From Tamarix chinensis (taxonomy: Eukaryota > Streptophyta > Magnoliopsida > Caryophyllales > Tamaricaceae), in assembly GCA_030549775.1 (NCBI GenBank), contig CM060172.1:1489623-1553622 (forward strand): DNA of 64,000 nt, written 5' to 3'. Below the pieces are notes generated by a model. The model did not search any database. It saw only the letters and a list, made by a program, of their open reading frames with translations, and was not told where the DNA came from. This document shows, in pieces, positions 28,324-64,000 of the stretch. Positions within the stretch are counted from its first letter, which is position 1. Each line of letters opens with the position of its first letter. A program made the translations under genes and the position numbers.

Positions 28324-28343
28324 AGGTAAGTAGAGACTTACCT
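28324..28343 (-). promoter_or_regulatory. Palindromic splice-donor-like site, LTR G
   Basis: Same arms as in LTR C (AGGTAAGT/ACTTACCT), but the loop is AGAG, at the same place relative to the GC-rich part. Confidence 0.5.
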
Positions 28344-33611: not shown

Positions 33612-33658
33612 CATCAGGCGTGAGTTAGATGATGATCATAACTCTTTCATGGTTGATG
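33612..33658 (-). repeat. End-proximal stem-loop of LTR F
   Basis: Two stacked stems: CATCA/TGATG outside, GAGTTA/TAACTC inside (33622-33627 and 33639-33644); near edge 90 bp from the LTR end. Confidence 0.7.
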
Positions 33659-33753
33659 TGGTGATAACACTCTCTAATTTTATTTTTCAAATGTTTCCAC
33701 ATTGTCTTAAAAACGAAATTTTTTAGTTCAAAAATTAGAGGCGTTGCACTTTT

Positions 33754-34285: not shown

Positions 34286-34482
34286 ATGGAGAAGAGCCGT
34301 CGAGTTTATGCAATTGCTTTGTTCTTTCACTTATCGGCTGTTTCTTTCGCGAACGCTGGCAGATTTCATCCTCTCAACGATAATCAGCGGATTTTCAGTT
34401 CAGAGTTTTATGGAATTTACGATACTTCTATGTATGGTAAACTTCAGCTCAACAACGGGTTGGCTCTAACACCTCAAATGGG
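34286..34482 (+). CDS. AGAL: Alpha-galactosidase exon 1
   Basis: Encodes residues 1-65 plus two bases of G66: signal peptide, short propeptide-like segment and start of the barrel. The ATG at 34286 is the first one in frame with the rest and gives a good signal peptide; an upstream ATG at 34260 is in another frame. Donor gtaatc. Confidence 0.9.
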
Positions 34483-37400
34483 GTAATCTATTTTTCCCCC
34501 CTCCGTTGACTAAATTGTGACTAGTTTCTGCGATTTTCCATTGGTCATGGTACTCAAGGTTTTTCTTACTTGTTGGAAATTTACAATTCTGAGGTGTTTT
34601 TTATTTTTTATCCTGCGCATATCATGTTTATTTATTTATTGTTCTCAGGGTATTTTACTTTACTGAACCAAATTATGCTAGTATTGTTGTGTTTGGATCG
34701 TCCGAATCCTGTCTTGTCTGTGGTGATATCTGATGCTAGGTTGACCTTCAATAGCCTGCTACTAGTTCTATCTACCACTCGGGTGCAAATGAAATTAATT
34801 TCATTGGCTTCTACGGTTGGCAGATGGAATAGTTGGAATTTCTTTGCCTGCGATATAAATGAGACAGTCATCAAAGAAACGGGTAAGCCATCTTTCTTTG
34901 GCCCATGCTGTGGTTTTTCTTTGCCTTTTTTCTTTGTCGATCAAAGTCTTAGTTGCCTGTATTCCACTTCAAATGTATGTATGAGGTGTCACTGCAAGTA
35001 ATTGTTAATTGACGACGAGCCTTATAATTAGGATGTATTGCTTGCTTTTGTAAACATTCCTTACTTAATCCTTTGATCTAGGTTAGCCATGATTTTGTGG
35101 ACTTGAAATCAAGCAGTGTACATAATGTGCCCTCATATTCAAAGTTGTAGGAAAGACTGAGGAAGTTAATGATGTGTTTGGGAGGGTGTAATATTCAATC
35201 ATGTGGATCTAATGGTTAGGACGGAGTTTGGATAAGATGGTAATGGCTTGGTGATGGTGAGTTTGAAGACGAAAGTTTTGAAAATGATGTAAATAAGATG
35301 ATGGTGATTCGAATTATGGTAGAATAGTGATGATGGTGATTCGGTGATGAAGGTTTAACAATGATGATGGTTCGAATGGAACACACTAATTAATCTATGT
35401 TTTCGGTGATGGATTGATGATGATGCTTGAGTGTCGAAAGTTAGGGTTTGGATGCAGGTTGGAACCGTGGTTTAGGGTTAGGGTTTGGGTCAAAAAGAGG
35501 GAATAAGGTGGTGTTTGGTTATGGATGGTTCAAAGTTTCAAATGAATTGTTTAGGCTTCGATGTTGTATACTGATTTAGGGTTTGGTTTAACCATGAATT
35601 AGAGTAGGATTTTGATGGTAATTAGGGCAGGAAAACATGGATTAAGAATAGTAGAAGAGATATGGATTTATATCTAATTCACACAGAAGAAGAGATTAAA
35701 ACTTTCAAGCCAAACCGTTCACATAGATTCAATTTGCTTGAGCTCGAACTCACATAGAATTCATTCAATGTTGGTCTTCAACTTCAATTCAATTCTTCAT
35801 AATCATAATACATCCAATATGCTCGACATTAATGAATAATATAACCTTTCTACCACTAGCTAAAGCATATTCCAAAAGATTCCAAGCTAAAAGATATTAT
35901 GCTACTTTATGCTGACTTTATTCTCCTACTTTATTACTTACTTAATAAATTAGCTAAATCACTTAATAATGCTTGAAAATCTTGCCAATATATTTCTTAT
36001 GCATGTAGTTACTCCCTCCTTGCATGCCATACATGCCATGCTCATGCACGTAGAGATTTAATTACTTGTTTGTTACGTTTCGAGCAACGTAACCATCCAT
36101 TGGTCTTCAAATTTATAGGAGACACTTTTCAAATGAAGAATAATTGGTTCCATAATTATGAAAGCTAATTCTTGGGTGTTTGCTTCTGCATCATTCTCCC
36201 CTTGTTGATTTGATTTGCTCTCAAATTTGCATTGTCATAATAAGGGCTAATATCTCCAACGTTGAATGTCCTTGATATTCAACCATATGAATCTGGCACA
36301 TCGAGCTCATAAGCACTTTCTCCAAACTTCCGAAGTACTTTGAAAGGACCATCTGCCCTTGGCATAATCTTGTTGTGTTTGCACAAGAATCCATCTTGAA
36401 TAATAGAAGCTGCATAATATCCTTTTTTCTTGCAATCTTCAAAGATCATAGCAAAATCATCATCCATGTCATATTGACTCTTCAATATCTCAAACCCCAA
36501 AAGCTTTGCATCCATCATAGTAAGTGCCATGGTCCTCCTTGATAATGCATCCGCCACGACATTTTCTTTACCATCCACATGCCTTGTAGAGAACACAAAT
36601 GTCTGCAAGAAGCTTATCCACTTAGCATGTCTCGGACTCACCTTCTTTTTACTATGCAAATACTTCAAACTTTCGTGATCCGAATGAAGTACAAAAGGCT
36701 TGGGTCTCAAGTAATGACTCCATGCATACAATCAAATATCGGTACCGCAATTGCGTATCGGCCGCAATTTCGCGGTTTTCAGGTCAGCCGCGACGCGAAA
36801 TTCCGAAATTGCGGCCGATACAGAAAATCACACATTTATCGCCGCGATATCGGCGAAATTTCGGATATCGGCCGATATTTTACCGATATTGACCGATATT
36901 GGCCGATATTCACCGATATTTGCCGATATTTGTTGTGTAAAATAATTAAAAATTCACGCCGCGACAACCGCGATATAGAAAATATCATTCGCGACACCCC
37001 GATACCGCGACACCGCGACCGCAACCGCAATCGCGACCGTAACCGCGGTTTTATTGTATGACTCCATGTCTCCAAACAACGCATTATAGCATAGAATTTT
37101 TTATCGTAGGTCGAATAGTTGAGTCTTGCGCTGTTCAACTTCTCACTAAAGAAAGCAATTGGCTTCCTTTCTTGTGAAAACACACCGCCAATGCCTACAC
37201 TCGCATCACATGTTGCTTCAAATAATTTATCAAGGTAAAGATAATACTGATGTATTTGAGAGCTTTGTCTCCAAATCTGCAAAAACCCTTGTTGCTTGAT
37301 CATTCCAATGGAACTCTCATTTCTTCATCAACTGTGTAATAGGTACTGCGATGTTAGAGAAGTCTTTGATGAACCTCCTACAGAATGAGGCCAACTCATG

Positions 37401-40400
37401 GAAACTTCAAACTTCGTGGACATTAATAGGAATATGCCACGGTTGTATGGCTTCCACCTTTGACGGATTAACTCAAATACCATCTCCACTCACAACATAA
37501 CCCAGAAAGATCACCCTTTCCATCATGAAATCACACTTCTCTATCTTACCATAGAGATTCACTTCTCTAAGCTTATCAAATATCCTCTTCAAGTGTTGTA
37601 TGTGCTCGAACTCACTCCTGCTATATACCAGGATATCATCGAGGTAAACAACAACAAAGATCCCAAGAAATGGTCTAAGTACCTCTGCCATCAACCTCAT
37701 GAAGGAACTTGGTGCATTACATAGCCCAAATGGCATCACCAACCACTCATACAACCCGTACGTAGTTTTGAAAGATGTCTTCTACTCGTTCCTTTCCCGT
37801 ATCCTCATTTGATGATAACTGCTTCTAAGATCAATCTTCGAGAACACCTTTGTACCATGCAACTCATCTAACATGTCATCCAATCTCGGCATTAGAAATC
37901 TGTACTTGATTGTGATTTTGTTGATGACTCTCGAATCAATGCACATCCTCCACATACCATCCTTCTTAGGTATTAACAAAGCTGGAACACCGTATGGACT
38001 CATATTCTCCTGAATATAACCTTGATCTAACAACTCTTGCACTTGTTTCTGTAGCTCCTTGGCCTCTTTCAGATTGCATTTATAAGCCGGTTTGTTCGGT
38101 AATGGAACTCCTGATATAAGATCAATAGCATGCTTAATACTTCTCAAAGGAGGTAGCCCACTTGACAACTCTTTCGGAAACATATCGGCATACTCTTTCA
38201 ATACTTGTTGCAATTTTGGATTCATATTAGTATTCTCCCCACATTGGATCTCTTTTACCACTAAGGCATAGCAAATCTTCTCATTTCTGATGGCTTTATT
38301 CATCTCACACTCCTTAAGGATCAACAACTCCATATTACTCTTCTTTTTTCCTTTCCTACACTTGACATCCTCCTTCTTTTCATTCCTCAAAACCGAATCC
38401 TCCCCATCTAGATTAGGTTTGAGCCTAAACTGCTTTTAATCCTTGCATACTACGTACTCATTAAGGACCCCATCATGCACAACCTTCCTATCAAATTGCC
38501 ATGGCCTCCCGAACAAAATGTGACAAGCATCCATAGGTAAAATATCGCATAAAACATCATCAAAATATTTTCCAATCTTAAAAGAGATAAGAGTTTGTTT
38601 GGTTACCTTTACGCTTTTATCTTTGTTGAGCCATTGGAGTGAATATGGTATTAGATGACCCTTGGTCTCCAAACCGAGCTTGTTCACCATCTTCTCACTA
38701 GCAACATTAGTGCATGAGCCACTATCAATGATGACTTCACACACTTTATCACCAATTCCGCATTTGGTCTTAAAAATGTTCTCCTGTTGAGTAAGTAAAG
38801 GTTGTGGTTGTACTTGGAGCACCCTTTGTAACACGCAGCAATCCACTTGGCCTTCTTCCAAAGCATCCTCCAAGATATTGCTCTCCTCTTCTAGGTCTTC
38901 ATTCTCTTCACAAGCCTCTATCTTTGCTATCTTTTTCAAAGTCAATGCCCTTTGGTTTGGTCAATCCCGAGCAAAGTGGCCATAACCTCTACACTTGAAG
39001 CATTGCTTGTTCACCTTATCAACCACTTGATCTTTGCCCTTTTCTTCACGAGTAAACTTCCTAGCATGGTCTTAACTTGTGGCTTGAGAAATTGGTGGCT
39101 TCGACACACCCTTGAAAGTCGAACCATATGGAGCATTGGTTAACTTACTTGGTGGTTTTGTCCTCTTCAACTGTTTCTCGAACTTGATGGCTAATTTGGC
39201 TAGGTTTTCAAATACTTCATATGCATACACCTCTACCTTCTCCCGAAGATTCATATTTAAACCCCTGATGAATCGTGCACACCTTTGTTCTTCTCGTTCT
39301 TGGACATCACATATAAGAGCTAGCCTTTTGAACTCCCAAATGTATTCTTCAACTCCAAGTAACCCTTGCCTCGACGTAATCATTTTTATAAAATTATCTT
39401 GCTCGTATTCCTGAGGCACAAACTTCTTCTTCAAATGTTTTTTTAATTTTTTCCATGACCTAATCTTTGATTTTCTTTCTCTCTCCCATCTCCTTTTTAA
39501 ATTATTGTACCACACTCTAGCAAACTTTTTAAACTTTAATATCGCTATTCGACATTGTTTCTCGTCATCAATTTCTTTATACTCAAAAATCGATTCAACG
39601 ATTTGTAACCATTCAAGAAAAGACTCCGGGTCGAGATTACCTTCAAAGTCGGGAAGATCAAAGTAGATTATTCCACATCATCATAAGTTCTCGAAGTGTC
39701 ACGTGCCCTTACGTAATTTCCCACACTCTCTTCTTCTTCCACCTGGTTTTGTGCTCTTTTCACATGCCCTTCCTCTACTTGTTCCCTTCGATTTTGTGGC
39801 TGCACATGGGACTCGTGGGCTTGGGAAACTTCTATTCTTCCTACCTGCAATTTGACCTCCTTGATTTCATCCATCAAGGTCTTGAGAAATTCTCTCAAGT
39901 CTTCTCCTTGGTTCTCCATTCTTCTTCTTAACAACCAATTATTACCCTTCTAAACAATCCCTTAAATGCTCGGCCCATTTGTATTTTCTTGATGAATCTT
40001 AAGAATATTGAAAGAGAGATTGAATATTGATTGCAATTCCACCAACCTAAGGCTCTGATACCCAAATTATGTGAGCTGAAGACTTCAGTTTGAGACTTGC
40101 TAATCAAAGAGGTGCATGAAGGAGGAATTGCAGGACACTTTGGAGTTCACAAGATTTTGAATTTGCTGCAAGAACATTTCTGTTGGCCGATGATGCAAAA
40201 AGGAGTATAAGCCATGGTTGCTAGGTGTGCTACGTGTTAAAGAAGCAAGAGTTTCTTTCACAAAGGGTTATATGTACCTTTGCCTGTGCCTACTCAACTA
40301 TGGGAAGGTGTTAGTATGGATTTTATTTTAGAATTGCCTAGGATATAACGAGGTAAGGATTCTATTATGGTTGTAGTGGATCGATTTTCGAAAATGGCTC

Positions 40401-43400
40401 ATTTTATTCCGTGTCACAAGATCGATGATGCTACCCGTGTTGCGGATTTATACTTCAAGGAGATTGTGAGGTTGCATGGAATTCCGAGAAGTATTGTTTC
40501 AGATAGAGATGTGAAGTTCCTAAGCTATTTTTGGAAGACTTTATGGCACATGCTAGGAACAAAGCTTCTATTTAGCACGTCACATCATCCTCAAACGGAT
40601 GGACAAACCGAATTTACTAATAGAACTTTGGGTACTTTGCTAAGGGGATTGGTGAGTAAGAGTGCTAAGGATTGGGATGTCAAGTTAGCACATGCGGAGT
40701 TTGCTTACAATTGAAGTCCTTCTACTACAACAAGCTCTAGTCCGTTTGAGATAGTATATGATACTAATCCATATGTGCCGATTGATATGGTGCCATTGAA
40801 GAAGGGTGAATTGAAGAGTTATGATGCATAAGAGAGAGTGGAGTTCTTTCAAAAACTTCATCAACAAATTAAGCACAATATTGAAAAGACAACTGAAGTG
40901 TACAAGACAAGAACAAATAAGCATCGGAGTCAACATGTTTTTCAAGCAGGAGATTTGGTATGGTTACACTTGAGGAAGGATAGATTTCCTAATCTAAGGA
41001 AACACAAGCTCATGCTAAGGGCGGATGGTTCTTTCAAAGTACTTTGGAAGTTTGGAGAAAGTGCTTATGAGCTCGATTTGCCAGATTCATATGGCGGTGT
41101 ATCAAGGACATTCAACGTTGGAGATATTAGCCCTTATTATGGCAATGCAAATTTGAGGGCAAATTCAAATCAACAAGGGGAGAATGATGCAGGAGCAAAC
41201 ACTCAATGATTGACTTTCATAATTATGGAACTAATTATTCTTTATTTGGAATATGTCTCCCGCAAATTTGAAGACCAACGGATAGTTACGTTGCTCGAAA
41301 CATAACAAACAAGTAATTAAATGTCTATGTGCGTGTGCATGGCATGCAAGGAGGGAGTAGCCATGTGTATGAGGAGTATATTGGCAGGATTTTCGAGCAT
41401 TATTAAGTGATTTAGCTAATTTATTAATTAATTAATAAAATAGGAGAATAAAATTACAATAATATCTTTTAACTTGGAATCTTTTGGAATATTCTTTAAC
41501 TAGTGGTAGAAAGGTTATATTATTCATTAATGTCGAGCATATTGGATGTATTATGATTATGAAGAATTGAATTGAAGTTGAAGATCAACATTGAATGAAT
41601 TCTGTGTGAGTTCAAGCTCAAGCAAATTGAATCTGTGTGAACGGTTTGGCTTGAAAGTTTTAATCTCTTCTTCTGTGTGAATTAGAGATTAATACATATC
41701 TCTTCTACTATTCTTAATCCATGTTTTCCTGCCCTAATTACCATCAAAATCCTACGCTAATTCGTGGTTAAACCAAACCCTAAATCAGTACACAAAACCG
41801 AAGCCTAAACGATTCATTCGAAACCTTGAACCATCCATACCAACCAAACACCACCTTATTTCCTCTGTTTGAACCAAACCCTAACCCCAACCCTAACTCT
41901 AAACCACGATTCCAACCTACATCCAAACCCTAACTTTCAACACTAAGCATCATCATCAATCCATCACCAAATGCATAGATGAATTAGTGTGTTCCATTCG
42001 AACCATCATCATTGTTAAATCCTTATCACTGAACACCACCATCACTCTTCTACCATAATTCGAACCACCATCATCTTATCTACATCACTTTCGAAGCTTT
42101 AGTCCTTAAACTCACTATCACCGAGACTTTATCATCTTATCTAAACTCCATTCGAACCATTAGTTCCACATAATTGAAGATTACAACCTCCCACACACAT
42201 TAGTTCATTAAAAGGGTCTTCCTTTTCTGCCTGAAAGCAACCTTGACTGTTGGTTTATTCCACTGGATCATTGCAATCTGGAGCTGTAGTTTTGGCATAT
42301 GCTGTTCTTCTGTTAACAGCAGACTGTGCCTTTGATTTTGTTTACACTGCAATTAAATACGGTGTAATTTGTAAGGTGGGGGAACTTACCCGATTGAGCT
42401 AACATGATAACGAATGGATTATTTGAAATTATTTATCTCATGAAATTCCATTGATACTGGATTCATGGCTCTATGCTATTGGCCTAAGAGCATTTTTCCA
42501 TAGGTCCTACTCCTATCTTTTCTCCCTCTCCCTACTCTCTGAAAATAGTATAAAAAGAAAAAGAAAAAGAGAAACAAATGATCCATTGTGGTCCTCTAAT
42601 TCATGCGTCCATGGGAAGTATTTTTTATTTGTCTGTCATGATTTGTACTTTTCATAACTTTGATCCTCTTTTCCATGGGGAGGACCCCTCTCTTACATTG
42701 GCATTTGATATTCTTACTGACAGCGGATGCTCTTATATCTACGGGGTTGGCGGATTTAGGTTATGTGTATGTGAACATCGGTAAGGCTTCTTCATCTCTC
42801 AGTTCTCATCTATTACCTGCTCTGTCTTTTTATCTGGATCTTCTTGTGTAACATATACTGTGTTTTGCGTTCTAATGCTCCTTTCTTCTTTTATTTAAAA
42901 TATGTGGATCAAATGTTTCAAATGCAGATGATTGCTGGTCTAGAGCTTCACGGAATTCAGCAGTGAGTGCCAGTTCTATCTGTCTCCATATCTATATTGT
43001 TGCCAGCTTGAGATTCAACAATAGAGATGTTTCTTTTGCTTATGAAAGAGCCTCTTTCATACTGGTTTCACATCTCTGATCATAGGGGAATTGTTAGATT
43101 GCCTCTAAATTCATAAGTTTCCATATCTATGCAGGGTGAGTTAGCTCCTGATCCAAAGACTTTCCCCTCAGGAATCAAAGCCCTTGCAGATTATGTACAT
43201 GATAAGGACCTCAAGCTTGGCATCTATTCGGACGCTGGGTATTCTTGAGCAACATGCTTGAATATTCATTCCATTTTGTCCTCTAATTTGCTTTTCCATA
43301 TCTATCGTTCCACTTACCTAAACTTTAACTATTTCAGGGTTTTCACATGTCAAGTTCGCCCGGGATCTCTTTTTTATGAAAGTCCTGATGCTGAATTATT

Positions 43401-46400
43401 TGCTTCTTGGGTTTGTATATTACATCTTGCATGTAGCATTGGTCCATGGTTTCTCTTTCTCCTAACACTTTTCTCCTTTATGTTTGTATGATTAATAAAG
43501 AAGCAGGTTTGATGCCATTTTAAGCTTCAGCTGAACAAAATTGGAAATCCTGAAATTTAATCTCTTATTTGGAGTCTCAACTTGCACTAAGCTCCATCCT
43601 TTAAAGGGCCAGATGTAGCATAAAATCAGTAATCTGGCGATGGTGTTTCTGGCTTATGGAATATTGTCTTCTTACCAATTAACTTGTTTATTTTTGCCCT
43701 GTAGGCTGTTGATTATTTGAAGTATGATAACTGCTACAATCTGGGGATCAAGCCCGAAGAAAGGTCTAATAGAATTTTAACAATGAAGCAGGTTCTTTCT
43801 TGCTAATCTAAGGATACTGTGCTGAGGTTATTTTTTGTCCTTTATTTTGCAGATACCCTCCCATGCGTGATGCTTTGAATGCAACTGATCGTAAAATTTT
43901 TTATTCAATCTGTGAATGGTAGGTGGGATCCCTTCAATATATCTACTGTTGGCTAAGCTAAGCTTCTTAGACGCATTCTGTCAGGTAACTTTTTTCCTTT
44001 CTTCCTGTAGGGGTGTTGACAATCCTGCTTTGTGGGCAGGGAAAATCGGCAATAGTTGGAGAACAACCGATGACATAAATGATACATGGGCCAGGTTAAT
44101 ATCTATACTACTTAATTGTGGCATTATGCAGTGGGTTTCTTGCTGTCATTGCTGTAAATTGGTTAATTTTTAACTCATGAAGCCAGATCATTTCTTTCTT
44201 GAAAATGGAGAATCATGAAGAATTAAGGAAAAAAAGAATAGGGAATAATGATTATGAGCTTATGTGCCTGGATATGCTAGGAAAAGAGAGAGAGAGAGAG
44301 AAAGAAGACTAGCTGGCAGCGCATGCAATGCCAGGGCTGAGGGACGAGAGAAACAAGAATAAAATTTCTAGAGTTTAATATAATAGATGTGCGTTACCCA
44401 TCTTGGTGCAGCATCTACTACAAATGGGCATAATTTACTTAATAATTTTTCCAAGAACATCCAAAAATCCTTCTAATTTGGATAAAATTTGTAACACTTC
44501 AAATTTTAGAACAAAGAAATTTCATTTTGAAGAGAACGTGGAAGCGTAGCGAAATAAAATTGGGGGATATCCCTACCATATTAATGTGTGATTATCACCT
44601 AACACATGCTTGATGTAATACAAAATGGAACGATGAACAAAAGAATGCATGTGCTAACAAGAATAGTAATAATACTATAGAAGGGAGAGAGAGGTTTACA
44701 AAATTCAAATAAAGGAACTAAAGCCAAAAGTTTAAATAATCTGAAAGAACAAAAATATTCCAACACAGTGGGCAAAAACAATTTAAATTGGTTTGTCTAA
44801 TTCTTAATTAAATAGAATATAAATCTTGATCTCCAAGCATGACAAACTATTGACCCACGTCATCCTCTTCGGTATAGTCTAACTGATAGTCATACCTCTT
44901 TAAATCGTCCCTTACTCATCGGAACAGAAGCCGGATCATCATAATAACTATACAAATGTAGTATGAATACACTAAAGTACTGGTAAAACTAAGCGCCTAA
45001 AACATGGTACTAAGGTCTCATGTTGCACATTGAGGATACATAATATATAAGGCATACTTAGGAAACATGACTTCTAGGATCATGATTATCATGTAATAAG
45101 GCATGCTCGCTTGTGAATCATAGAAATGATAACAATGCAGATCATTCATTATGCACCGATAGAATAAGTTATATTATTAATCCTCCATTTAGTGACCGCG
45201 TACCTTCCAATTATAAAGATGTTAGATTTGACTATACCTAGTTCTCAATCATGAACAAAAGTTTTGGCATCATAACATACACAATGAGATACCACATCCA
45301 CCACAAGGGGTCAGACTGATGCATATGCCAATACAAATTGGGTCAAGTTAGGAAGGTGGTTATCAATGGGGGATAACTGAATAAGAAAACAGAGAAGAGG
45401 GTGAAGAAAATGAGTTGAATATGATCTTTGGTACCTCCTTAGATCATATACTAACAAGAACCACCTAAGGTTTCAACACTTAGGATAAATCTTGTAAGAT
45501 TTTAGGATCCAAACTTCAAACTCATGCACTAGAGTTGAAGGTGACTGATTTCTGCTGAGAGAAATAAGATAGCCAAATTCTGAGTTTTTTTCATTTAAGT
45601 GTGAGCCCAACACTTATAAGAGAGTGTTGGGTCTCATTTAGTTGTAATACAACTCAACAAAAAAAGGACTGGTTTGGTTAACTAATCAAACTAGTTAGTT
45701 GTCAAAGAGACTAACTTTACCTAGTTTAATCCTAACCAAAACTAAAGTTGACTTTGTACTAGCTGAAACAAAGAAATCAGAATTGTTTGGGACCTTCCCA
45801 ATGTCTTACATCTGACTCGGGAGGCTCCTTACAAGTTGATAAGCTAAGCTAAGATAAAAACATCATTAAAAGTAAAAAGTAAAAGTAGCTTTTATGCTAA
45901 AGACTAAAAACATTATTAAAAGCATAAAGCAGAAAGTAACTTTTCTGCTGCAAGCCCAAAGTGCCATCATAGCCTAAGCATAGGTTTCTTTTCTTCCAAA
46001 AAAGGTCTGCCTCCTATGATACTTATAGCTGTTGCTGCTGCTAGTGCCCACATTTGTCCAGAAAAGTGCTGTTGGGGCTGCTATTGTGGGACTTGAACTG
46101 TAGCCTATCCTTGGCCGGGTAGTGAGCCATTTAAGCCAAAAAAATGAGCCACTAAGGTGCAAAAGGTGGTGGCTGGATTGAAGTTTTGCGTGGCTTTCAT
46201 GGCTTGGGGTTTAGTTAAACTAATTAGTCCAAGTGAGGAGGTTTTTATGTCCCCTAACTTAGAGAAATTAACAACTAAATTAATATCTTGGATAATGGAT
46301 GCTCCTGCATCACAGACTATATCGACGGGGCTCTCTTAGGGATACGGCACCTCCACACCTACCTCACTTGGAGAGCAATTGCTGCGAGGGCTATGAACAT

Positions 46401-48934
46401 ATGAAGTATCACCAGTGTTGAGAGGTTTGTACATGATACCACACCCGCCCAAGCTAGCTACCAATGCCATACTGGCTTGCCATAGTATTAATTCTATACC
46501 TTGTAAATATGCACATATCTCTACTGACCTTCAACAATCCGGTAGAGAAGGAAAAGGGGTACCAAATGAAAAGATAAAAACAGGCAACTTACCCATTAAC
46601 TCTCGGTTAGCTACCCGAGAGTTGGAGAAAAAAAGTTCGAACGAAATTTAATTTCCATTATTACATTTATCAAGTGAAATCACAAATCACAACTCAATTC
46701 CGTTGATAATCAATTGACTCTTTCCAAGTGGTAACTCCAAACACAACCAAGGCATCCAAGCTACCAAATTGGGTGACTAGAGATAACACTAAACTCAATC
46801 AATCAAGGCTTTCAAGTCACACCACAATATTTATCATTTTAAATTTCCCCTTAGTTTCAATTATGCATGGTCAATATCAGGATTTTATGTTGCAAACTAA
46901 TAGAAAAGTTAAAATAGAAGCCTCAAAGAAAGACCAACAAATAATAAATAAGCATAGCAAAAGTAGGCAGAGCCAACCAAATAATAGCATAACGAAACCC
47001 ATTGACTTGTTGGTTTAACCAATTGACTTTTCATAAGAACTGGTTGGTTGGTTTGGTCGAACTAGTTGATGGGTTTAGGTCGAGACTAAAACCACTTTGT
47101 ATGCAAAACCGATCGACTGCTCATTGAAACCAAACGATGAGATTATCATATTGATTGATTATTGATACATGCTAGTCAATGTGTCTATCAAATTGATCAA
47201 CTGTCAACGCAAATTAGTCGATGGGTGTAGCTAACCAATTGATTGGAGTGGCAAAACAATGCTCAAACCCTCAACCTCACATTTAATAAAATCACATGCA
47301 TTCCCATCATAACCCTATCATGTTCCTATGCTGCAAAATACATACATTACTCACTTAATATCACATGGATTCATGTGGAAGAAATCAATACACATCATGT
47401 TCATGCTAAATTCACCAAACTAATGCTTGATATCAAAATACTCAAAAACATGCTCCAAACTCCAACGATATAAACATTCCACATGTTCAAATTCAAAGAC
47501 TTCAAATCAATACATAAGAAACATAAAATAGACTAAAGACATGCTACCACAATTAACAACATAAATCTTAAAGATAAAGATATTTTACTTCCAAGCAAAA
47601 CCTTGTAGCACAAGAATATACTTCTATCTGGCTACACTCACGACTCTTGATTTCCTTTGAAAAATCCTTTGAAATCTTAATAAAAAATCAAAACAGAAGA
47701 GGAAGAAATGAAGAAGCACAACTTAGCCTTCTCTGAAGAACATTTTACAAAGAGAGAATAAGTAGGACCTTTAATGTTTCTCTACACTTCAGTCCTTTCT
47801 TGTTTAAAATGGAAGCAAGGGAGAGCTAAGGTTAAGATTAGGAGAAGAGATAAAAGAAAACAACAATCAAGGGAGGAAAATCAAGAGTTAAAACCTTTGC
47901 TTTCTAGCAGGGTAGAAAAAAAAAGTGGAGAGAGGAGAAAAATAAATTGCAACACTTAGAGAATTTAACTCGAGTAAAGGAGAGAAAAGGGAAGCAAGTG
48001 TTGGGGTGAGTAGAAAATGGATTAGGAGGGAGGTTTCCAACCCCTCTCTATTCGAAAAATCAAAAAGAGGAAAGAGGGGGTGGGTTGAATTTGGTTGGGT
48101 GTGGGGAATCAAAGATTAAGAAGGGGAATGATAAAAATAAGGGAGATGGAGTACAATCAGGTTGGGGCAAAGGTAAGATAGGTTAGGGGAGGGTGTAGGG
48201 GTTCTGCATGTAACCATGGATGCTATAGGAGAGAGAAAAGTGAGGAGAGGGAGAGTAGGTGAGAAAATACTTTAAAAATGTTTTTGGGATATTTTTAACT
48301 AAATAAAATCATAGGGTGATCTAAATAATTTAAAAATAATCTCAAAATACTAAAATATGCTTGTTAGTACAGGTATACTATAATTAAAAGTTATCATTGG
48401 AAAGAGAATCGAAGGGAAAATAGAAAAATACAAAATTGATCGACTGGTTATCCTAGAAATTAAAATGTAATTTCATGGTCGTATCGGTCAATCAGTTTGG
48501 GAAACCAATTGATTGGTGTGCCTAAAATTCACATTTTTAACCTATTGATTTTGGCCAATGTTTTGTGTATTTTTTAGCACAAAAATGGAGGTACAAGAGT
48601 CTAGAAAAGACCGATGCAACAATAACTACCATGAGTAGAAAGTTGCCTTCTAGCCTTTTTAGCTTAGCTTTTCTCGAAAAAATCCCCAATTTAGACCTGA
48701 AAGCATGGGGAGCATCTTTAGGCCATCATTTTTTAAGTAAAGTCAACTTAGTAGGCTTTATAGACTGATTTACTTTAAGTTATAATCAAACTAGTTATTT
48801 TTCTGTCTATTTGATAACTCCTTAGTTTGATTTCAATTAAATCAGCTTTATTAGTTAGTAACATAGCTTGTAAAGGGTTGACATGCCCTTATAAAGTGTC
48901 AAGCGTATGTTTTGAATGGAGGAAGCTTTGGATG

Positions 48935-48966
<32 letters not shown>

Positions 48967-51900
48967 TGGCAGAACTCAGAATTTGAATGAATTTTTTTAT
49001 TTTAAACCCACAAAATCTTGCTTTCTTTATTTCAAGAGTTTAAACTTTGGATGGTGATAATGGGTATTATAGATCAAATAACTACTCATTTCCCTCATCT
49101 TCTTCTCTTTTCTATTTTGTGGTAGTTGCCCCAAATCCACCACCTCCCTTAGCTTGACTCAATTGTTTCTCAGATGCATCACCTGTTTAATCCTAAGAGC
49201 CTTGGGGTATTGACAAACTCCATTCCTCACCTTTTTTCATATTGTTCTTCATATGGATAAGGCAGTTATCCGTAGTTAGTTGCACACTAAATTCCTCACT
49301 TTTATAATGCTCTATGTGTGACACCACTATATTCTAAAAAGAAGTGGAAATAGATGTAGAGGTTCTAAATAGTTAACATAATAGTTAACAAGTGTAGATA
49401 TAGACACAACAAAAAATGTATTTAATTAATTATAATGGTGAGATCATGAGACAATCCTACCACGGTTTGTCAATATTGCAAGACCTTAACAAGGCCATGG
49501 AGATGTCAATTTTTATAATTTATTTACAAAGAACAATGATTACACAATAAAAAAAGATTTCAATTAATCCCAAAAAATAATGGAAAGTTATTCAACCACA
49601 ATTTCCCCCTACCAATATTCCACATCTAGGATTTTTTTATTGTTGTACTAAACAACACTTTTAATTCGCATATGTCAATAATAATTTAAAAGATCGGGCT
49701 TTTATTTAATTTTTGGGATTAATTGAAATCTTTTTTTTTTTGTTTACAAAGTTTTGATTTCTTTGTTGAAATCTTTTAAAATGATTACTGATGTTGGTGT
49801 TTTGCGAATTGAGGGATTATTTGAAAATTAGAATGGGGCTCTTTAGTAAAAAAATACTAAGGGGGAAATTAAGAGGAGAAAGGAGAGAAAAAGTGAGAGA
49901 GTTATATTATTAATATCGGGCTCAAAATTGATACAAGATTAGGATATGGGTAGAACGGGTGATGAGTAAAATGGCAAAATACTCTATGCTTGAGGACAAC
50001 AAACTTTCCCTATTCTACGTAGAAGATCGGCCTAATTTAGAATCGGTATAGCTACCAGCTTGGGGCCGGTCTGAGGGAGAGAGATGCTAGAAATTGTTGG
50101 GCCGACTCTTGTCTTTTGGGGTGGCATTCCAAAAGTCCGGGAGCATACTTATGTATTAACACACCAAGGTCACATACATGTAACATACTCATATGGTATT
50201 CATAACATGGCACACCAATACATGCATATGAATATTAAGAGTAACATGCTTTATGATAGACATGGGATCATGGATAATCATATATATCACAAGACTTAGG
50301 AATCATGGTTCACAACACATGCACATATAGACAGTATATTAAGAAATGTAAGCCACTTAAGGCATCTCTAAGGTCCATTTCATTTAATTAGAATTGTATC
50401 CATTTAATTATACATCCATTTAACTTAGAACAATAGATTGGATTATTGTAACACTCCTAAGTTTTAAAACGGAAAAAAATTATTTAAAAGAGTTAATAGC
50501 TGAAGCCAAAATATAAGATGTAGGAGTGTCCAGTTGCACCTAAATAGAAGAGACTCTCTATGCCTAGTTTATATTGGGTGCAAAGAAAAAGCAAACTCGT
50601 ACCTATAAATTAGGTGTGAGAATCACTTGATTCCACCATGATACAGGCTACTAAATAGAGAGAAGGAAGATATATAATAAAAATAGTAGACTAAGAGTCT
50701 ATAGAGAGATAGAGATACTCAGACAATCATAACCTATACTAATTTCGATTATGCACTCACTCAAGGTAAGTACATTAAGAATAGAAATCATCAGTCACCT
50801 GCAAAACAAAGTGGATACGCTCGTGGGAATGGACAACACCCATAAAAAGGATGATCATTACACTACATACTGAGTAAGATAATAATCTAGTTAAAGAAAA
50901 ATTACACAAAGTTATACGATTGCACAAGAGATAAACGTGCATATAGAATAACATATGATACTGACTTATTTATTAATTTCCAGGCCTTACAATATTAATG
51001 GTATGATCAATATCTATAATCTTATTTATGTTGAGTTCAGGACTCCACTATTCTCAACTGATGGAATGATATCATAAATATACAGCCTCGCATAAAGCTT
51101 CCATCCTCTATTCTCAACCTGTAGAATGGTATCAATAATATACAATTCTAGGACTAAACACTCCTGGCTACTATTTTCAAATAGTGAAACGGTATTAATA
51201 ATATACAACCCTAGGACGTAAAGCTCCTAGTTACTATTTTCGTCCGGTGGAATGGACGGTTACAACCGGTTTTGCCTCATGTGGTATTTCACTAATATTT
51301 ATCAATGATTTTGATCATTCAAATGATTTATTTAATTTGAGTTAAGGGACCCACTATTTTTAATCAGTGAAGCAGTATCATAAATGGAACCTTAGGGCAT
51401 AAAACTCCTAGCTGTTATTTTCATTCATCGGAATGGTATCATAATATATAACCCCAGAGCTTGGCCACTATTTTCATTGGTGGAACGGATAAACAACTAT
51501 TCTTGACTCATATGATCTTTTACTGTAAATGAGTAATATCTTATTCGTGGCCACTTATTTCATTGTCATCATGTGTACACATATAGATATGCAAAACACA
51601 CGACCCGATATATTTTCCACAGACAATCCATATTCCCCTTAAGAAACCCTAATTCATAAGTGAAGTATAAATTCTCTCCTGGTACTCATTTTATTACTGT
51701 TAATGACAAATTTTCTGCAAAAAGAAAATTGAAGAACAAAATATACTTTTATTGATTATTAATTATTGGATCGAATGTAGGTACAATCTCTGTATAAATT
51801 CGGTACAAGATTTAATATCCTCTGATTCAATCTCCTAGACAATTGATGGCGTTGTGATTCGCGATGTTGAATTTTGGGTTCAGCTTGTTCGGGGCTCGTC

Positions 51901-54900
51901 TTGAGAAACCTGTTGATGAAAATTTAATTTACCTGGTAAAGAGGGCATGATTTGGTGGTGCTTGATCCCTTCAAACAGGTTCAATGATGTTGAAGTTGCA
52001 ATGCTTCAACGTTTTCGACTTTGATGATCTGGAAAGCTTCGTTCTTCGATCATCGGATCTTACTTCTTCAATCTTCGGATCTTCGTTCTTCGGGTCCTCG
52101 ATCTTTAGCTTCAGAGTGCTTGGGAGCGTTCTCTCTATGAGCTCTTGATCTCAGGACTTTAGTGTGTCTTCAATGAGGAGGGGAGCCCTCTATTTATAGA
52201 GAAAAGGGCCTCCTTGGCTTTTGGGCTTGGGCCCGTCTCGCGTTGTAGACTTAAAAGTCATGCTTCATTTAACTTAATTTTACGGACTCATGACCTTTTG
52301 TGAAATAAATTAGGCCCATATTTAATTAAACTAAGCCCAATTAAAATATTTCGGCCCAATTTAATAAAATACGAGCGGGATGTAAACAATTAAAATATTT
52401 TATTTTAACATATAAATCCCAAATAATTTTAGGAATATTTAATTATTCCTAATTTATGTTGATTGATCATATAACAATCAAATATTATTTTTCTTCTTGT
52501 TATACTTTTTCGGTGTCAACAATTACCAAATTTAATACCTATACTTAAAATATTATTATTGATAATATACCCAAAAATCAAGGTTTAACTCCAATGTCGT
52601 ACACATGCGATAATACTATATTTAGGAGTACTATTTACATTTCCCACAAAACCCTAATTTCAAAATTTAACCATAATCATTCTCATAAGATCCCTATAAC
52701 TTCAAATTTTATATACATTCCCTAAATATTATTATTGACATCATATATAAAAAAATATAACATATAATGACTCATAGAAAAATTTCCACAGACAAGCCAT
52801 ATTCCCCCTAAGAAACCCTAATTCATAAGTGAAGTATAAATTCTCTCCTGGTGCTCATTTTATTACCAAATTTAATACCCATACTTAAAATATTATTATT
52901 GACAATATACCCAAAAATCAAGGTTTAACTCCAACGTCTTATACATGCGATAATATACTATATTTAGGAGTACTATTTACATTTCCCACAAAACCCTAAT
53001 TTTAGAATTTAACCATAATCCTTCTCATAAGATCCCTATAACTTCAAATTTTATATACATTCCCTAAATATTATTATTGACATCATATATGAAAAAATTT
53101 AACATATAATGACTCATATAAATACTTGTAATATAATATAAAATATTAGTTTATTGAACATTTATATTCAAATGATCACTAAATAATTATTAGAGTATAT
53201 AGTGAAATAAAAATTCATGCTGTAACGATCGTGACACATAATTTATCGTTAGCAACGCTTTGATGCTGCTGCACCACGACCACTATTTTATTGCCCGAGT
53301 CCAACTTCCAAGTCTTACACATGTGATAATAGCCTACCTTAAGATTACTATTCACCCTCCCACAAAACCTTAATTTTACAAATTAATTATAAATTTTCCC
53401 ATGAGACACATAAATTTCAAAATTTGATAGGTAATCCTAAAATGCAAATATTAACCACATATCCATAATTCAAGGTCAAATTCCAACATTCCATACATAT
53501 GATAAATGATTCTACCCTTAGGGTTACTATTGACGCCTAAAGCCACATTTTTTCATTTATTGGTCTTAGACCATTCATATTCACTCCAAACATTCCACAT
53601 AATATATCTACCCTAGTTTGAGTCATTTATCACATTAAAATACCCAATATTCCATTTTTAACCCATATTAATCAAAATGTTCAAATATCCATTTTTCTCA
53701 AAAATCTTATGAATCCCATTATGAATGATTTTTAGGCCTACAAGACATTCTATCATTACAAAAATGCATAGCCATAATTATATATATAAGTACTACACAC
53801 CATGATTCATCTCAACCAACAATATTTACAAACTCATATTTTCACTACTTTCTTACCTTTTCCTTCAACATATAACACCACATATCATATAGTACTATTA
53901 TCATGATAATATTTTCCATACAACAATTCCAAGCATGATTATACAAACAAATATAAACATTTGCACATAAAATTTCTAACTATTATATATATCTTTACCG
54001 ACGCGGTTCCTGTCTTTAAGTATGTAAGACCTGTTATTCTTCCTCCAAAACCATCAGAATATCATATAGAAGTCAAAATACACAATATTAGACTTAGGAA
54101 AAATTAGTCTAGGGGAAATTAAGCCAAAGGAGAGTGAGGAGAAATAGAGATAACCAAAAAGTGGAAGGCTTGGGCAGGGTGGTGCATGGAGGTAGCGTGG
54201 TGGCGAACATGGCGGGGGCATGGTGGCTAAGGTGGTAATGATGGTGGCGGTTAAGGGTGGTGGTGATGGGATTGGTGGGGGTTGGTGGTAGGTAGTGGCT
54301 AGTGGCCGATGGCAAGGGGTGGTGTGGTTGGTGGCAGGGAGAGAAAAGTGTAGGTAAAGGAAGGTGGGGGCTGGGTTGGGTTGCTAGAGGTGGTGGAGTT
54401 GGTGTTGATCGGTGATGGTTGGGCAATGGTGGTGGTTTGCAGGCGGCTATTAAGGTTGGGAGTGGTGTAGCCAGTAGTTAGGTAGAGTGAGAAAAGAAAA
54501 GAAGGTGAAAGAAGGCGGGAGCCAGGGGAAGGGAAGGAGTCGACAATGGTAGTGATGTTGGGGGTGACGAGTCACTTAGGTGTTGTCTGGGGCTGTAGGG
54601 CACGGGTGAGGAGGAAATGGGACATAGGGGGTGGTGGAGGTGCTGGGATGAGTGGACATGGGAAGGAGGAAAGGGAAGGGAACTTGGCCATGGTTGAGGA
54701 CGACGATAAGGGTGGTTGTGCTGGCGGCGATGGGCGGTGGTGGTGAGGAGGAGAATAAACAGAGAAGGGGTTGGGTTCTCGGTGATAACTCAAACAGGAG
54801 GAGGAAATGAAAGAAAGGGGAGAAGGAAGAAAAAAGGGGTGTGTGCTGCATGTATGTACACACACACACACACATATACAAGTATGGTTGGGAAAGTTGA

Positions 54901-57900
54901 CTGGGGAAAAGGAAGGGAAGAGGAAGAAGGCGATGGGCAAGGGTTGGGTTTGGCATGTAAGGGGGTAGGTGGGCAAAGGTAGAGGTGCAGTGGTGGGTTG
55001 CAAAGGTTGCAGGGCTGGGCGAAGGGGTAGACTGCATGGTCGGGAAAGGGAAAGGGAAGGACGATGTGGGATGTAGGGGTAAGGCCTTGTTTGGCCAAAA
55101 GAGGAAAAGGGGAAAAAGGAAAGGAAGAGGGAGGAGGTTGACTGGGGGGAAGAAAAATGGGCTGGGCTGGCATGTAAGCTGAGGAAGGAGAAAAAAGAAA
55201 GAAGGGGGTGGGCTGGGGCATAGGTTGGGAGAAGAGAGAGAAAGAAAAAAAAGGAAAAAAAGAAAAAGGGAAAAGAAAAAGGAAAAAGGGAAGAAGGAAA
55301 ATTTTTGGGTTTAAGATTAGGATTAGGTTTAGGTTTAAATTTAGGGAATTAATCTAAAATTTTATTTATCAATTATCAAGGGTTAAGGTTAGGCTAAAAA
55401 TATAATGACCTAGAAATTAGACTTATGATTCGATTTGGGGTCGAGGAATTTGGTTAAAAATAAAATTATTGATTATTTGAGATTTGGATTAGTTTAAAAC
55501 ATAAATTAATTGGGATTAGATGAAACTTTGGGGTATTACAATCATCCCCATGGTGTCTCCATATCCATGGAAGTCATCCAATAATCAAATTAACAATAGT
55601 CCGACCGAAGTTAAGAAACCTAGCCGAAGCTAAGTAAATACACCTAGGTTATTAGACCCTTTAGTATTGATACCTCCTAGGGTAGTAAAGACATAGGAAA
55701 GGCATAAGGATCAACTCGGGCTCTACCAGAAGGTAAATAATAATAATTAATTGAAGTCAACTAATCTTCATTAGCTAATCAAAGATTAGATAATGTAGAC
55801 CCACATAATGCTCAACATTTTCTTCTGCTTTATACGATTAGTGCTTTGCCATGCCAAGAGCATATGCCATACCAAGGCCCATCTACCATGTTGTTCCAAA
55901 TCATATCACATAAATATCATATCTTTTCCCGTTAAAGTTAATCAAAGGTGACAACATCATTAGTTAGTCAAATTATGCCAAAAAGGGTAATTGGAATATT
56001 CAATAATAATCACAGATATTCAAAATCATCATTTACTTTCAATTATTCTTCATTTGATTTGAAAGTTAAAAGTCTAGGTTAAAATCTAAAACAAAGGTCA
56101 AAGCTACGGTAAAACTTCCAAGAGCACCCCTCAATATATCACATAACATTGAAACTAGTTGATTGATTTGGATTGCACAATAGAAAGAAAAACATTTGAA
56201 TCAACACAACTATTCAATTGGTAGGATAGCTTTGACCGGTCCTGCACAAATAGTTGATTGGTGGCTTGCACAAGCCATATGTTAGAGAAAATTAGTGACA
56301 AAACATTTTTATCCTGCAACCAGCCAGCTAGTGAGGCATGTTGGTCGACTGGTATTACTAGTGGATTGGTTTCAACCCCAATTGGTTTAATGGTTTACTT
56401 AGGGACTTAGTCCTATATTTAAAACATGCTTTCTCACTTCAACCAAACATCAATCATGTTGCATACATATTATTAAAACTTGGAAATCACGGATAAGCAA
56501 TTTTATGCTTAAATCATGCTTAGGACTTCATAAATTTACCAATATTTATTAGTATTTAAGCATGTCATAGAAAACCTAATAAGCATGCTCGAACACTTAG
56601 CACAATTACTTCATGTTTCATGCTAGACATGCTCACATGTTGAAATCTCAACGTACTTGGGCTATATATTAGGTACGCACAAAATCTAAAAAGGAAAAAA
56701 ATTGAAATCTTGCTCAATCCCTAATATCATACTTTCTATGCATGCTTGCATATAATTCATAATCCTAAGGCTTACACAAACCCACCTACTCATTCACTTC
56801 ACACATTAAGTTAAGAATGATTTACCTTAGCTCAACTATTAAAATACCACAAAATAGAGAAGCCTTTTAGCTTTAGACCTTAAAATCTTAACCAGCTTTT
56901 AAAGAGAACACTAAAACTCAATAAAACTTCTTAAAAATCTTATAAAACTAAAACAAGAATAAAAAGTTAGAGAAGAAATAAAAAATGCATTACCTCTTCT
57001 CATAAGTTAAAAAATTAAGAGTAGAACTCAAGCTTATCTAACCCTCTTTTGCTTAAGAGAAAAAAAAGGCCCAAAGGGAGATAGACGGTGGATTAAAAGA
57101 AGGGAAAGAAGAGCAGAAACGGAGAATAGGAAGAGAAGAGTATATGGTGGAGAGGAAAGGAGAAGGGAGAATTTGAGAGAGAGAAAATGCTAACACTTAG
57201 AAAAATAATGAATGTGAGAAGAAGGCATAATGAGGTTGGGAAAAGGTACGGTCAAGAAACTGAAAGAGCCACAAGCTCCCTTCTTTTTGCCCCCAACTGT
57301 ACTTTAGAGACATTATGGGATTTTGTTTTGGCACTCTTCACTATGGGTTGGTCTAACTAGTTGGCTTCCTTTGTTTTGGGCGATCGTTCCTCATTGGTTC
57401 CCTAGTTTGGGCCACACATTGCTTGAGCTTCTTGTTCTAAAAATGTACCATTAGACTTTGGCTTCATATTAGGTAATTGCATGACTCTTGCTTGCCTCCT
57501 CATGTATTAGCTTTTAACCTGCGCCACCGCTCACCTGTATTTATGATTAAGTGGGATGGAGTATCCCCAGATCAAGCTACAATGAAGTTTGTTGTTGATT
57601 GTTGCTCCTTTCCTTATTACTAGCTTGAGGAAAAGCTTTTTTTTTAGGGAGAGCAAAGTTAGGGTACATGTTCATGGGCTGGGCCTACCTTTAGTCTCAC
57701 TTGGGCCTAGTGACCTAGTTTTAGCCCTTGCACGTTAGATTTGAGTCTATTAATAAGTATGAGGCAATACTTTTTTTTTTAAATTCTTTGTGGGTCTTAG
57801 TTAATTAATTAATTTATGTATTAAGGTAATAAGTAGGGATGGGAACGGGGTGGGTCGGGGAGGGGGACCCCATCCCCATCCTCGAACCCGATAAGAAAAA

Positions 57901-62011: not shown

Positions 62012-64000
62012 TGTGACACCCTAATTTTAGACCATACAACTTTTAAGAAAATTCTAAGGAGACATTTTTCAAGGGCATTACGCCACATCAAGTATAAGTC
62101 GATAAGTTGGGTGCCCACTGCTTGACTTATACTAAGTGGAAGGCTAATAAAATAACAAATCATTTAAATCAAACCAATTACAAGTAGAAGGAAACCATAA
62201 CAAAATTAGATATTACAAAACCAATGTTGAATCAAGTGTCTAGCTAAACAGAAAGTGTTATCCATTAAATGTAAAATAGAACGTTTCATGCCAATTGAAA
62301 ATGAGAAAAGGAACCGAGGTAGCCTTGATCTCACTCATTCTAACCTCATCAAACAACATCACAGTCAAGCACACCACTCCTTCATTAAGGATCATCACAG
62401 GTTTCAGAACAAGAACCAAGTATATGAACACCATCTACCACACATATATGGCGATGAAGCATGTATCATGTAACCATGCATTAACTCTTTATATGAACGA
62501 TCAATGTTAGTATATAATAAGGCACATGCATAGGAGCCATTTTACTTATCTAATTTTAAGTTATCAAACTTTTGGTTGGATCATCACATAAGTGGGAAAG
62601 TATACCAGCCTCAGGAGGGTCACTCATGGGTCAGCCCATCAAGGGATCCACATAAATATACATTCTTTAGGTGGGGCTACACTCCCATTAAGGGGTCCAC
62701 ATAAATATCACCTTTGTCAATTATTTTCAAGTGTGCACCCCTCGTAAGTGAGACTAAGCTACCCAAAGATTAAATTTGGAGCCTTACCACTTCAATTGAC
62801 ATCAACCAATGGCCATTTGCCACACAATCCTAACAAGCCAGCTGTTAGTTCAGTCTCTATCTACTAGGTTATCTATGCACTGAATAGCAGAATAGATATA
62901 AGAAATGATCGGAAAATTTGTTGGATTACTGGATTGAAGATACTCCAGGAATTAGAGACCCTGGTGTCTCTCGATTCTTCCATACACCATATATCCCCCA
63001 CTCCACATGCCAGCCCCTTCTATACATTCCCTACCGTACTGACCTCCTCTCACCCATGACTCAGCATCTAACAAACTCCCTTACCGAAATGGATCCTGCC
63101 CAATAACCGACAATGATAGCAATAACAGAAAATGATAGCTATCCTAAGGGAATTAACTAACAGAATAATAACTAATAGAAATATAGTGAAAAATAGATGT
63201 GCGGTCCCGCCCATTCATCCCCCTTCTCTGGTGACTCTGCGTCTCACATATGTCCTCTTGATCAATGGCCTATTAGCAACATCACATACTCATTATCAGA
63301 GATCACCATGTAAAAGTCCCAATTCATGGTCTTGTCACTTTAGGTTCAGGTGTCTTAACTATGGGTGACCACGTAAAGCACACCATACATACAAGACTAA
63401 TTTTTATTATTTTTTTATGTCCATCCATTATCCATTTTATATGTCAAGCCTTTCATAGTAAACCATCCATCCAAACATGGCACTAGACCAAAATCTCAAT
63501 CATATATTGAGGCCACCATTTTAATATTCCATATTTATCATCATGTCCTTAACTTTTATTCCAATAAATTACTAAGGTCCATAAATTTTCATAAGGTGGT
63601 TCCAACCAATCCAAATACCATATAATAACATCTCCATATTTGTATAATTCAATTATTTCAAATAAAACCTTTATACATGTTTAAAATCATCACATATAAT
63701 CTTAGGCATAATGGCAGATTTAACAACGTTGCACTCAAATAGGCATAACTCATGCCACAAAAATCCAAACAACTTATGATTTTTGGTATTTTTGTAAATC
63801 TAAATGACGGACCGTAAATTTTTGGTAAACAAAACATGCATGCCTTTAAAATGAGCGAAATTCCAAGCATCTAATCTAATTTATTATAATTTTTGTAAGT
63901 CAATTTCTATAATTTTTAGAAATGATAGTTGAGAAGAATACAAAGAACTTTAGAGTGTTTATTCAACCCTGATAGCTGAGAAGGAATGCCTTCTAACTAG
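62012..64000 (+). mobile_element. LTR copy K, left part only
   Basis: TGTGACACCC at 62012 begins another copy that runs off the window. Its stem-loop (62091-62133) has the best arms of all: AGTATAAGTC/GACTTATACT, ten perfect pairs. A different short repeat, with GGGTC and CCACATAAATAT, is at 62580-62720. It abuts a degraded protease fragment at 62011. It lies downstream of exon 14, probably in the last intron of the alpha-galactosidase. Confidence 0.65.
62091..62133 (+). repeat. End-proximal stem-loop of LTR K
   Basis: AGTATAAGTC and GACTTATACT form ten perfect pairs; starts 79 bp from the LTR end. Confidence 0.75.

Follow-up and report, generated by a model that had tools for sequence, protein, structure and literature searches.

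Two covarying stems at the ends of ten plant LTRs suggest a U5 reverse-transcription-initiation domain of Del/Tekay-like retrotransposons

The stretch of Tamarix chinensis DNA analyzed here (64,000 nucleotides, in the following called the window) harbors an alpha-galactosidase gene whose introns are filled with repeats (34287-44100 and further). Its exon at 43135-43236 matches Melibiase_2 (1e-10) and solved alpha-galactosidases; by eye, the likely first exon lies near 34287 and a further, putative exon near 58.9-59.1 kb, for which no Pfam match was obtained. A 1.2-kb inverted repeat with 88% identity (35172-36373 and 41004-42200) carries fragments of Ty3/gypsy-type gag, reverse transcriptase, RNase H and integrase, and represents either two oppositely oriented elements or a rearrangement.

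The segment at 62012-62133 forms one end of a long repeat with the tip TGTGACACC, and related tips were found at nine further places. These ten LTR ends, lettered A to K, share a domain of ~150 nt; the first-pass annotation had counted nine copies with a hairpin. The first base of the TGTAACACC-like tip is the lowest coordinate of the domain in A, B, C, G, H, I and K, where the tip reads on the plus strand, and the highest in D, E and F, where it reads on the minus strand. The tip is TATAACACC in A, GTGCAACGCC in F and TGTGACACC in K. In the following list the strand is that of the folding RNA proposed below, and P2 denotes the hairpin.

2302-2457, minus strand, domain of copy A; P2 at 2401-2448
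7044-7183, minus strand, domain of copy C; P2 at 7131-7181; z -9.10 on the sense and -5.45 on the tip strand
11139-11285, plus strand, domain of copy D; P2 at 11150-11193
17380-17529, minus strand, domain of copy B, the reference; P2 at 17480-17525 on the minus strand; z -7.29 on the sense and -4.81 on the tip strand
24708-24847, plus strand, decayed domain of copy E; P2 supported by the alignment only
25852-25998, minus strand, domain of copy G; P2 at 25936-25990
33597-33749, plus strand, domain of copy F; P2 at 33611-33659, individually not significant
44490-44627, minus strand, decayed domain of copy H; arms of the first-pass annotation at 44584-44589 and 44602-44607
50447-50590, minus strand, domain of copy I; P2 arms at 50534-50554 and 50562-50583
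62012-62158, minus strand, domain of copy K, the given copy; P2 arms AGTATAAGTC at 62091-62100 and GACTTATACT at 62124-62133

For four copies both LTR ends were located. These units of 2.9-5.2 kb look like solo LTRs, with TG...CA ends and a 5-bp TSD that is perfect in three of the four and carries one mismatch in the fourth.

7044-9974, minus strand, solo-LTR-like unit C, TSD AAGGG/AAGGG
17380-22592, minus strand, solo-LTR-like unit B, TSD ATCAA/ATCAA
25852-30732, minus strand, solo-LTR-like unit G, TSD CATGC/CATGC
50447-55540, minus strand, solo-LTR-like unit I, TSD ATTAT/ATCAT, one mismatch

An internal region belonging to the ten copies was not found within the window. The gag-pol fragments at 36-42 kb were considered as their partner and were taken as another element, given their inverted arrangement and the lack of a tRNA-iMet-type primer-binding site (PBS) by any copy.

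A hairpin at a fixed place in every LTR copy had been described in the first-pass annotation, and the arms quoted there, including those of K, are present in the sequence. P2 was compared with chance in a strand-neutral helix search over 90 nt per copy with 100 shuffles each. Seven of the ten copies beat the shuffles, with none of 100 as good in A, B, C, D, G and K and 3 of 100 in I. Individual support was absent in F (34/100 shuffles as good), E (41/100) and H (55/100), and in E and F the top-scoring helix differs from the one named previously. A fixed place in every copy is borne out by the alignment described below, but not by E, F and H taken individually.

When the folding energy of 60-nt segments was averaged over the ten copies along the first 1,500 nt, the minimum fell on either strand in the segment beginning 80 nt from the tip, at -18.2 on the reverse strand (mean -9.4, sd 2.2) and at -13.0 on the tip strand (mean -7.5, sd 2.1). 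In a scan of whole LTRs, 150-nt segments along B (68), C (38), G (64) and I (66) were ranked by z. On the reverse strand, hereafter the sense strand, the terminal 150 nt had the lowest z in B, C and G and ranked 17/66 in I; the terminal segment was extreme on the tip strand too, with ranks 1, 1, 2 and 1 in B, C, G and I. For the P2 region (67-78 nt per copy), z on the sense/tip strand was -5.73/-3.88 in B, -3.97/-4.70 in A, -5.99/-2.91 in D, -7.95/-4.50 in C, -8.41/-7.72 in G, -3.06/-4.57 in K, -1.55/-1.26 in F, -0.40/-1.83 in I, -0.50/-1.11 in E and 0.18/0.12 in H.

The hairpin arms had been held to be unrelated between subfamilies. However, the ten ends align, and the P2 arms are alignable homologues across subfamilies. 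RNAalifold on the ten-copy alignment returned P2 together with a second stem, P1, in which the last LTR bases pair on the sense strand with sequence 61-95 nt upstream. P1 was absent from the first-pass annotation, as were the folding strand and the tRNA D-arm box presented below. Individual helices of P1 are listed with the outcome of 200 shuffles each.

2378-2395 with 2304-2321, minus strand, P1 of A, 0/200 shuffles
7106-7128 with 7045-7067, minus strand, P1 of C, 0/200 shuffles
11200-11219 with 11266-11284, plus strand, P1 of D, 2/200 shuffles
17455-17474 (5' arm) with 17381-17400 (3' arm, the LTR terminus), minus strand, P1 of B, 17 WC and 3 GU pairs, 0 AC, 0/200 shuffles
24773-24782 with 24838-24847, plus strand, P1 of E, 21/200 shuffles
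25912-25934 with 25853-25875, minus strand, P1 of G, 0/200 shuffles
33661-33681 with 33731-33749, plus strand, P1 of F, 1/200 shuffles
50514-50529 with 50451-50466, minus strand, P1 of I, 8/200 shuffles

The best terminal helix of K lies off the homologous place and has no individual support (49/200 shuffles), and that of H was matched by 130/200 shuffles.

Compensatory change in a functional structure, as proposed in the first-pass annotation, was supported by this alignment of few and related copies. In the alignment structure 86.7% of 263 cells were paired, compared to 37.6-45.3% when one arm was slid by 1-3 columns; changes on both sides occurred in 14 of 27 pairs, compared to 1-7 when slid, and the covariation score was 0.465, compared to 0.110-0.143. 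Since these same sequences gave rise to the structure, which favors it over the slid controls, the double changes and the covariation weigh most. Among 500 column shuffles none attained the paired percentage, the number of double-change cells or the covariation score, while two of the five measures were weak, the number of double-change pairs being attained by 22/500 and that of pair types by 68/500. An outside sequence described below (L002) was left out of the covariation count because MAFFT misaligned its P1 arm. Under a structure taken from B only, pairing was kept at 48/57 positions in A, 44/55 in D, 41/46 in C, 40/46 in G, 36/45 in I, 29/42 in E, 31/48 in F, 24/41 in H and 22/39 in K, with 36-46% in the slid control. 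A covariance model built from the ten copies gave E values <0.01 in the window only for these copies. Five matches follow (E 0.016-0.29), four of which lie over known copies but on the opposite strand. One weak match, at 48471-48595 (E 0.15), overlaps no known copy and is perhaps an eleventh, decayed LTR end.

Counted in a strand-neutral manner, G-U exceeded A-C by 36:14 in P2 of the ten copies and by 29:6 in P1 of 13 sequences, counts that take in non-homologous helices (E and F for P2, H and K for P1); in the better-kept copies A, B, C, D and G the ratio for P2 was 23:3. The bias of P1 is partly expected, as the constrained terminus is G-rich. The excess of G-U over A-C argues for a structure of RNA rather than DNA, both of which the first-pass annotation had allowed for, and the most likely folding strand is the RNA that ends in ...GTGTTACA-3', the reverse of the strand considered there. 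On this strand, many mismatches of the other strand turn into G-U pairs, the stem of C is unbroken over >20 bp, and the folding energy is -31.2 compared to -19.5 kcal/mol on the tip strand in B and -34.2 compared to -18.2 kcal/mol in C; the reverse strand is energetically better in A, D and G as well. Changed pairs that were still paired numbered 5/5 on the sense strand and 0 on the other between C and G, 6/7 and 1 between B and A, 8/13 and 4 between A and D, 7/14 and 4 between F and H, and 4/8 and 3 between B and D; as the copies are related, these are not independent events. Against the sense-strand reading, the P2 region of I and K folds better on the tip strand, and in A its z is lower there.

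Further LTR ends of this kind came from prokaryote genome contigs, which were scanned for the plant-type PBS adjoining a TGTAAYAC tip. A first scan of such contigs gave no match, and exact scans of viral contigs gave none except L015, which is phage-like by eye. Of 14 matches, seven are scaffolds resembling plant retrotransposon contamination, namely L002 and the family of L005, L007, L010, L011, L012 and L014, whose longest blocks are 93-99.6% identical to L005. The other seven (L001, L003, L004, L006, L008, L009 and L013) were judged by length and context to be chance matches in bacterial DNA. The contamination-like scaffolds are small and belong to bacterial genome assemblies that have been published; a further Labilibacter sediminis contig (protein P0094) also matches.

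In all seven outside contigs the LTR ends in GGTGTTACA, followed by a tRNA-iMet-type PBS; the sequence after the LTR end is AGTTGGTATCAGAGC in L002 and AGTTTTGGTATCAGAGC in the other six. L002, the outside family with a demonstrated plant origin, encodes a zinc knuckle, a protease and a reverse transcriptase, and the closest named relatives of its protein, its own entry aside, are from Asteraceae (Tanacetum, Arctium, Cichorium) among the best 120 matches listed. Its P1 comprises 16 bp (13 WC, 3 GU) ending at the LTR end, with z -3.59 on the sense and -0.29 on the other strand. The motif CTTCCGCT lies 63 nt from this end, after which comes AGT-TGGTATCAGAGC, and a like motif lies at 55-61 nt in A, B, C, G, H and I. 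P2 was not significant in L002 (z -1.19), and the covariance model of the window gave E 0.26 on L002, which is not significant but is the top match and ends at the LTR end. The L005 group, six contigs of one family that are probably of plant origin, carries a terminal P1 and the same PBS as L002; one of its ORFs had no Pfam match. P1 of L007 has 6 GU and 0 AC (z -4.20 compared to +0.18), and no significant fold was detected upstream of it (z +0.31).

Since these outside families have P1 and their GTGTTACA end runs into a PBS, the LTR end in the window is assigned to U5 by homology, which supports what the first-pass annotation had put forward as a condition. A tRNA-iMet-type PBS with <=2 mismatches was not found beside any of the ten window copies, as expected of solo LTRs, and the elements are therefore labeled Del/Tekay-like only; the copies are presumed to have once had this PBS as neighbor. 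The orientation of the window copies rests on homology, the G-U bias and the LTR layout. In the opposite orientation the PBS would adjoin the other LTR end, TGTAATACC. TGTAACACCC, the motif seen most often at the U3 end of Del LTRs in maize and sorghum (PMC4029996, in excerpt), would fit this, and the two ends of the LTR resemble each other. In LTRs B and I the distal part is rich in GC and CT, which agrees with the 5' CpG island that PMC4029996 (in excerpt) reports for some Del groups.

The loop of P1 contains a short box, which reads GCTTCCGCT in A, B and C, GCTTTCGCT in G, GCTTCAGCT in I and ACGCTTCC in H. Its reverse complement in A, B and C, AGCGGAAGC, is found in the D arm of human initiator tRNA-Met, an arm that we take to be the same in plants. 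The human sequence was obtained from PMC8216282 (in excerpt), and the longest stretch of perfect complementarity to it within 160 nt was compared with 300 shuffles; the match to the D arm was recognized after the conserved motif had been seen.

2354-2363, minus strand, box of A, 10 nt, 0/300 shuffles as long
7095-7103, minus strand, box of C, 9 nt, 4/300 shuffles as long
17433-17441, minus strand, box of B, GCTTCCGCT, 9 nt, 6/300 shuffles as long
25901-25909, minus strand, box of G, GCTTTCGCT, 9/9 positions paired with one G-U
44540-44547, minus strand, box of H, ACGCTTCC, 8 nt, 16/300 shuffles as long

In L002 the box has 8 nt (8/300 shuffles as long), and in I 8 of 9 positions are complementary. 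D, E, F, I and K have an imperfect box or none; it was lost in D and deleted with its region in E. The longest match was 7 nt in the L005 group (at 135 nt) and in G (elsewhere), 6 nt in D, F and K and 5 nt in E and I, with shuffle means of 5.8-6.4. Beyond the PBS, A, B, C, H and L002 are complementary to the human tRNA over 8-10 nt, and D, E, F and K are not. Elongator tRNA-Met as a control gave 5-6 nt in A, B, C and H; 8-nt matches to other tRNAs occurred in L002 (elongator Met), E (Asp) and I (Lys). In the background of the window, 0.2-0.3% of 31-nt stretches offer 9/9 pairs to the 9-mer when G-U is allowed.

Taken together, the structure is well supported in its pairing, position, G-U bias and compensatory change, and we consider, with moderate confidence, that it is the U5 reverse-transcription-initiation domain of Del/Tekay-like (Ty3/gypsy) plant LTR retrotransposons. 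The hairpin of the first-pass annotation would be part of an RNA domain of ~150 nt at the extreme 3' (U5) end of the LTR, which in the genomic RNA would lie directly 5' of the PBS. P2 (about 20 bp) stands immediately 5' of P1, which pairs the last ~20 LTR bases and, in the best copies, would present GCTTCCGCT in its loop to the D arm of the initiator tRNA-Met whose 3' end pairs with the adjoining PBS. With P1 holding the LTR end and the box next to the PBS, the domain would most likely build the initiation complex, in primer placement and selection; P2 would be a variable neighbor, perhaps for RNA selection, and the domain may also label the RNA for packaging. From the earlier interpretation, compensatory change, RNA and the U5 end by homology are carried over, but not the unrelated arms nor the presence in every copy; its view that turnover could reflect avoided cross-pairing between subfamilies is a conjecture. 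More tentatively, the domain could be a previously undescribed kind of U5 domain, in which the end recognized by integrase forms an arm of P1, the loop is a docking site, just 5' of the PBS, for the primer tRNA's D arm, and P2, turning over through compensated changes, is a subfamily identity mark for RNA selection.

Primer contacts beyond the PBS are already known from yeast elements and from retroviruses, the latter with U5-IR and U5-leader stems and contacts between the tRNA and U5. Like the retroviral U5-IR, whose loop is named in PMC3601003 (in excerpt), the stem described here would lie directly 5' of the PBS; unlike retroviral U5 stems, P1 includes the last base pairs of the LTR and is preceded by a second hairpin of 20 bp. 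In Ty1, boxes complementary to the T and D hairpins of tRNA-iMet are functionally established (PMC5454406, in excerpt), and there too short boxes near the PBS are complementary to the primer T/D hairpin within a folded leader. The Ty1 boxes lie 3' of the PBS, whereas the box described here lies ~50-60 nt 5' in U5, is known from sequence alone, and occupies the loop of a stem that the LTR terminus closes. Ty3 is likewise a Ty3/gypsy element in which the D arm of tRNA-iMet contacts the element RNA beyond the PBS, but this contact is in U3, far off (PMC5371799, in excerpt). Del/Tekay elements share conserved LTR ends, LTRs of 1.2-4.6 kb and, in some groups, a CpG-rich 5' half (PMC4029996, in excerpt), as well as a 5-bp TSD and a tRNA-Met PBS (PMC3605345, in excerpt); in the main text of PMC4029996, as far as it was available, the word 'hairpin' does not occur and no U5 RNA fold is mentioned. 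No match at the gathering score of Rfam was obtained in the window, L002 or L007, and in the available parts of open-licence papers no account of this kind of domain came up for plant LTR retrotransposons.

Many genomes are filled with large plant LTR retrotransposons, to which the domain is ascribed. With a covarying domain that carries a D-arm box, priming and RNA selection become directly testable in plant elements, the annotation of solo LTRs gains a strand and boundary marker, and end recognition by integrase is linked with RNA folding.

Other functions for the same structure have to be weighed against this. Unlikely, though it could coexist with a role in the initiation of reverse transcription, is a poly(A)-site domain where R borders U5, in which P1 and P2 regulate 3'-end formation, the P1 loop providing an AAATAAA-like A-rich run followed by TTTTTCA and the 3' arm of P1 a G/T-rich downstream element. 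Most of the ten aligned copies have an A-rich run and then a T-run, B and C carry AATAAA at a distance of 40-43 nt from the end, and AATAAA followed by a GT-rich stretch is found in retroviral and animal LTRs (PMC3601003, in excerpt); when the four whole LTRs were scanned, however, G and I had no AATAAA <=500 nt from the end, and both the tRNA-complementary box and the turnover of P2 are left unexplained. The terminus recognized by integrase is taken in by P1, and the inner arm of P1 is similar to the 5' end of the LTR itself (TGTAATACCCC), as might be expected if the stems were quasi-palindromes of the DNA, maintained by template switching or as cruciforms or integrase sites, with no selection on RNA. 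The tip-strand folds of I and K and a terminal segment that is extreme on both strands would agree with this, but it gives no reason for the excess of G-U over A-C, of which the P1 part is partly expected from the G-rich terminus, nor for changed pairs remaining paired more often on the sense strand; we regard it as improbable.

The long, near-perfect stems could also form a miRNA-like hairpin, with double-stranded RNA of P1 and P2 feeding host silencing or being tolerated by it, and sub-threshold Rfam matches to the MIR172 and MIR161 models do cover P1 of B. These reach only 26.6 and 23.8 bits compared to gathering scores of 70 and 90, and silencing would exert no selection on the element to keep the stems, nor favor a tRNA box or a fixed place, which renders this very improbable. 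A 3' splice-site region of a leader intron in the LTR, with a T-run and CAG acceptor in the P1 loop and MAG|GTAAGT donors in the middle of the LTR, is suggested by TTTTTCAG in A, B and C, TTCCAG in G, and the sense-strand donors of C (GAG|GTAAGT) and G (CAG|GTAAGT); given that donor-like sites (score >=8) are scattered and occur on the antisense strand too, and that the acceptor is lost in several copies, it appears extremely improbable.

Several further repeats were observed near or inside the LTRs. Clusters of tandem CCACTATTATAGCCGGTGGACCGG-like units of variable copy number lie near or inside LTRs A, C, D, B and G.

2982-3449, cluster of CCACTATTATAGCCGGTGGACCGG-like units
7740-8337, cluster of CCACTATTATAGCCGGTGGACCGG-like units
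10136-10583, cluster of CCACTATTATAGCCGGTGGACCGG-like units
18031-18529, cluster of CCACTATTATAGCCGGTGGACCGG-like units
26853-27285, cluster of CCACTATTATAGCCGGTGGACCGG-like units

Within LTR unit G, a 29-bp tandem repeat around CATTACTTAGGGACATG occupies 26595-26825 and appears at no other place in the repeat listing. The segments 1371-2106 and 4387-5075 are ATT-rich and share 64% identity in opposite orientation, perhaps reflecting a plus-sense LTR remnant to the left of copy A. A near-palindrome of the form GGTAAGT...ACTTACC, carrying on the sense strand a strong splice-donor-like site, is present at 8607-8672 in LTR C and at 28315-28380 in LTR G.
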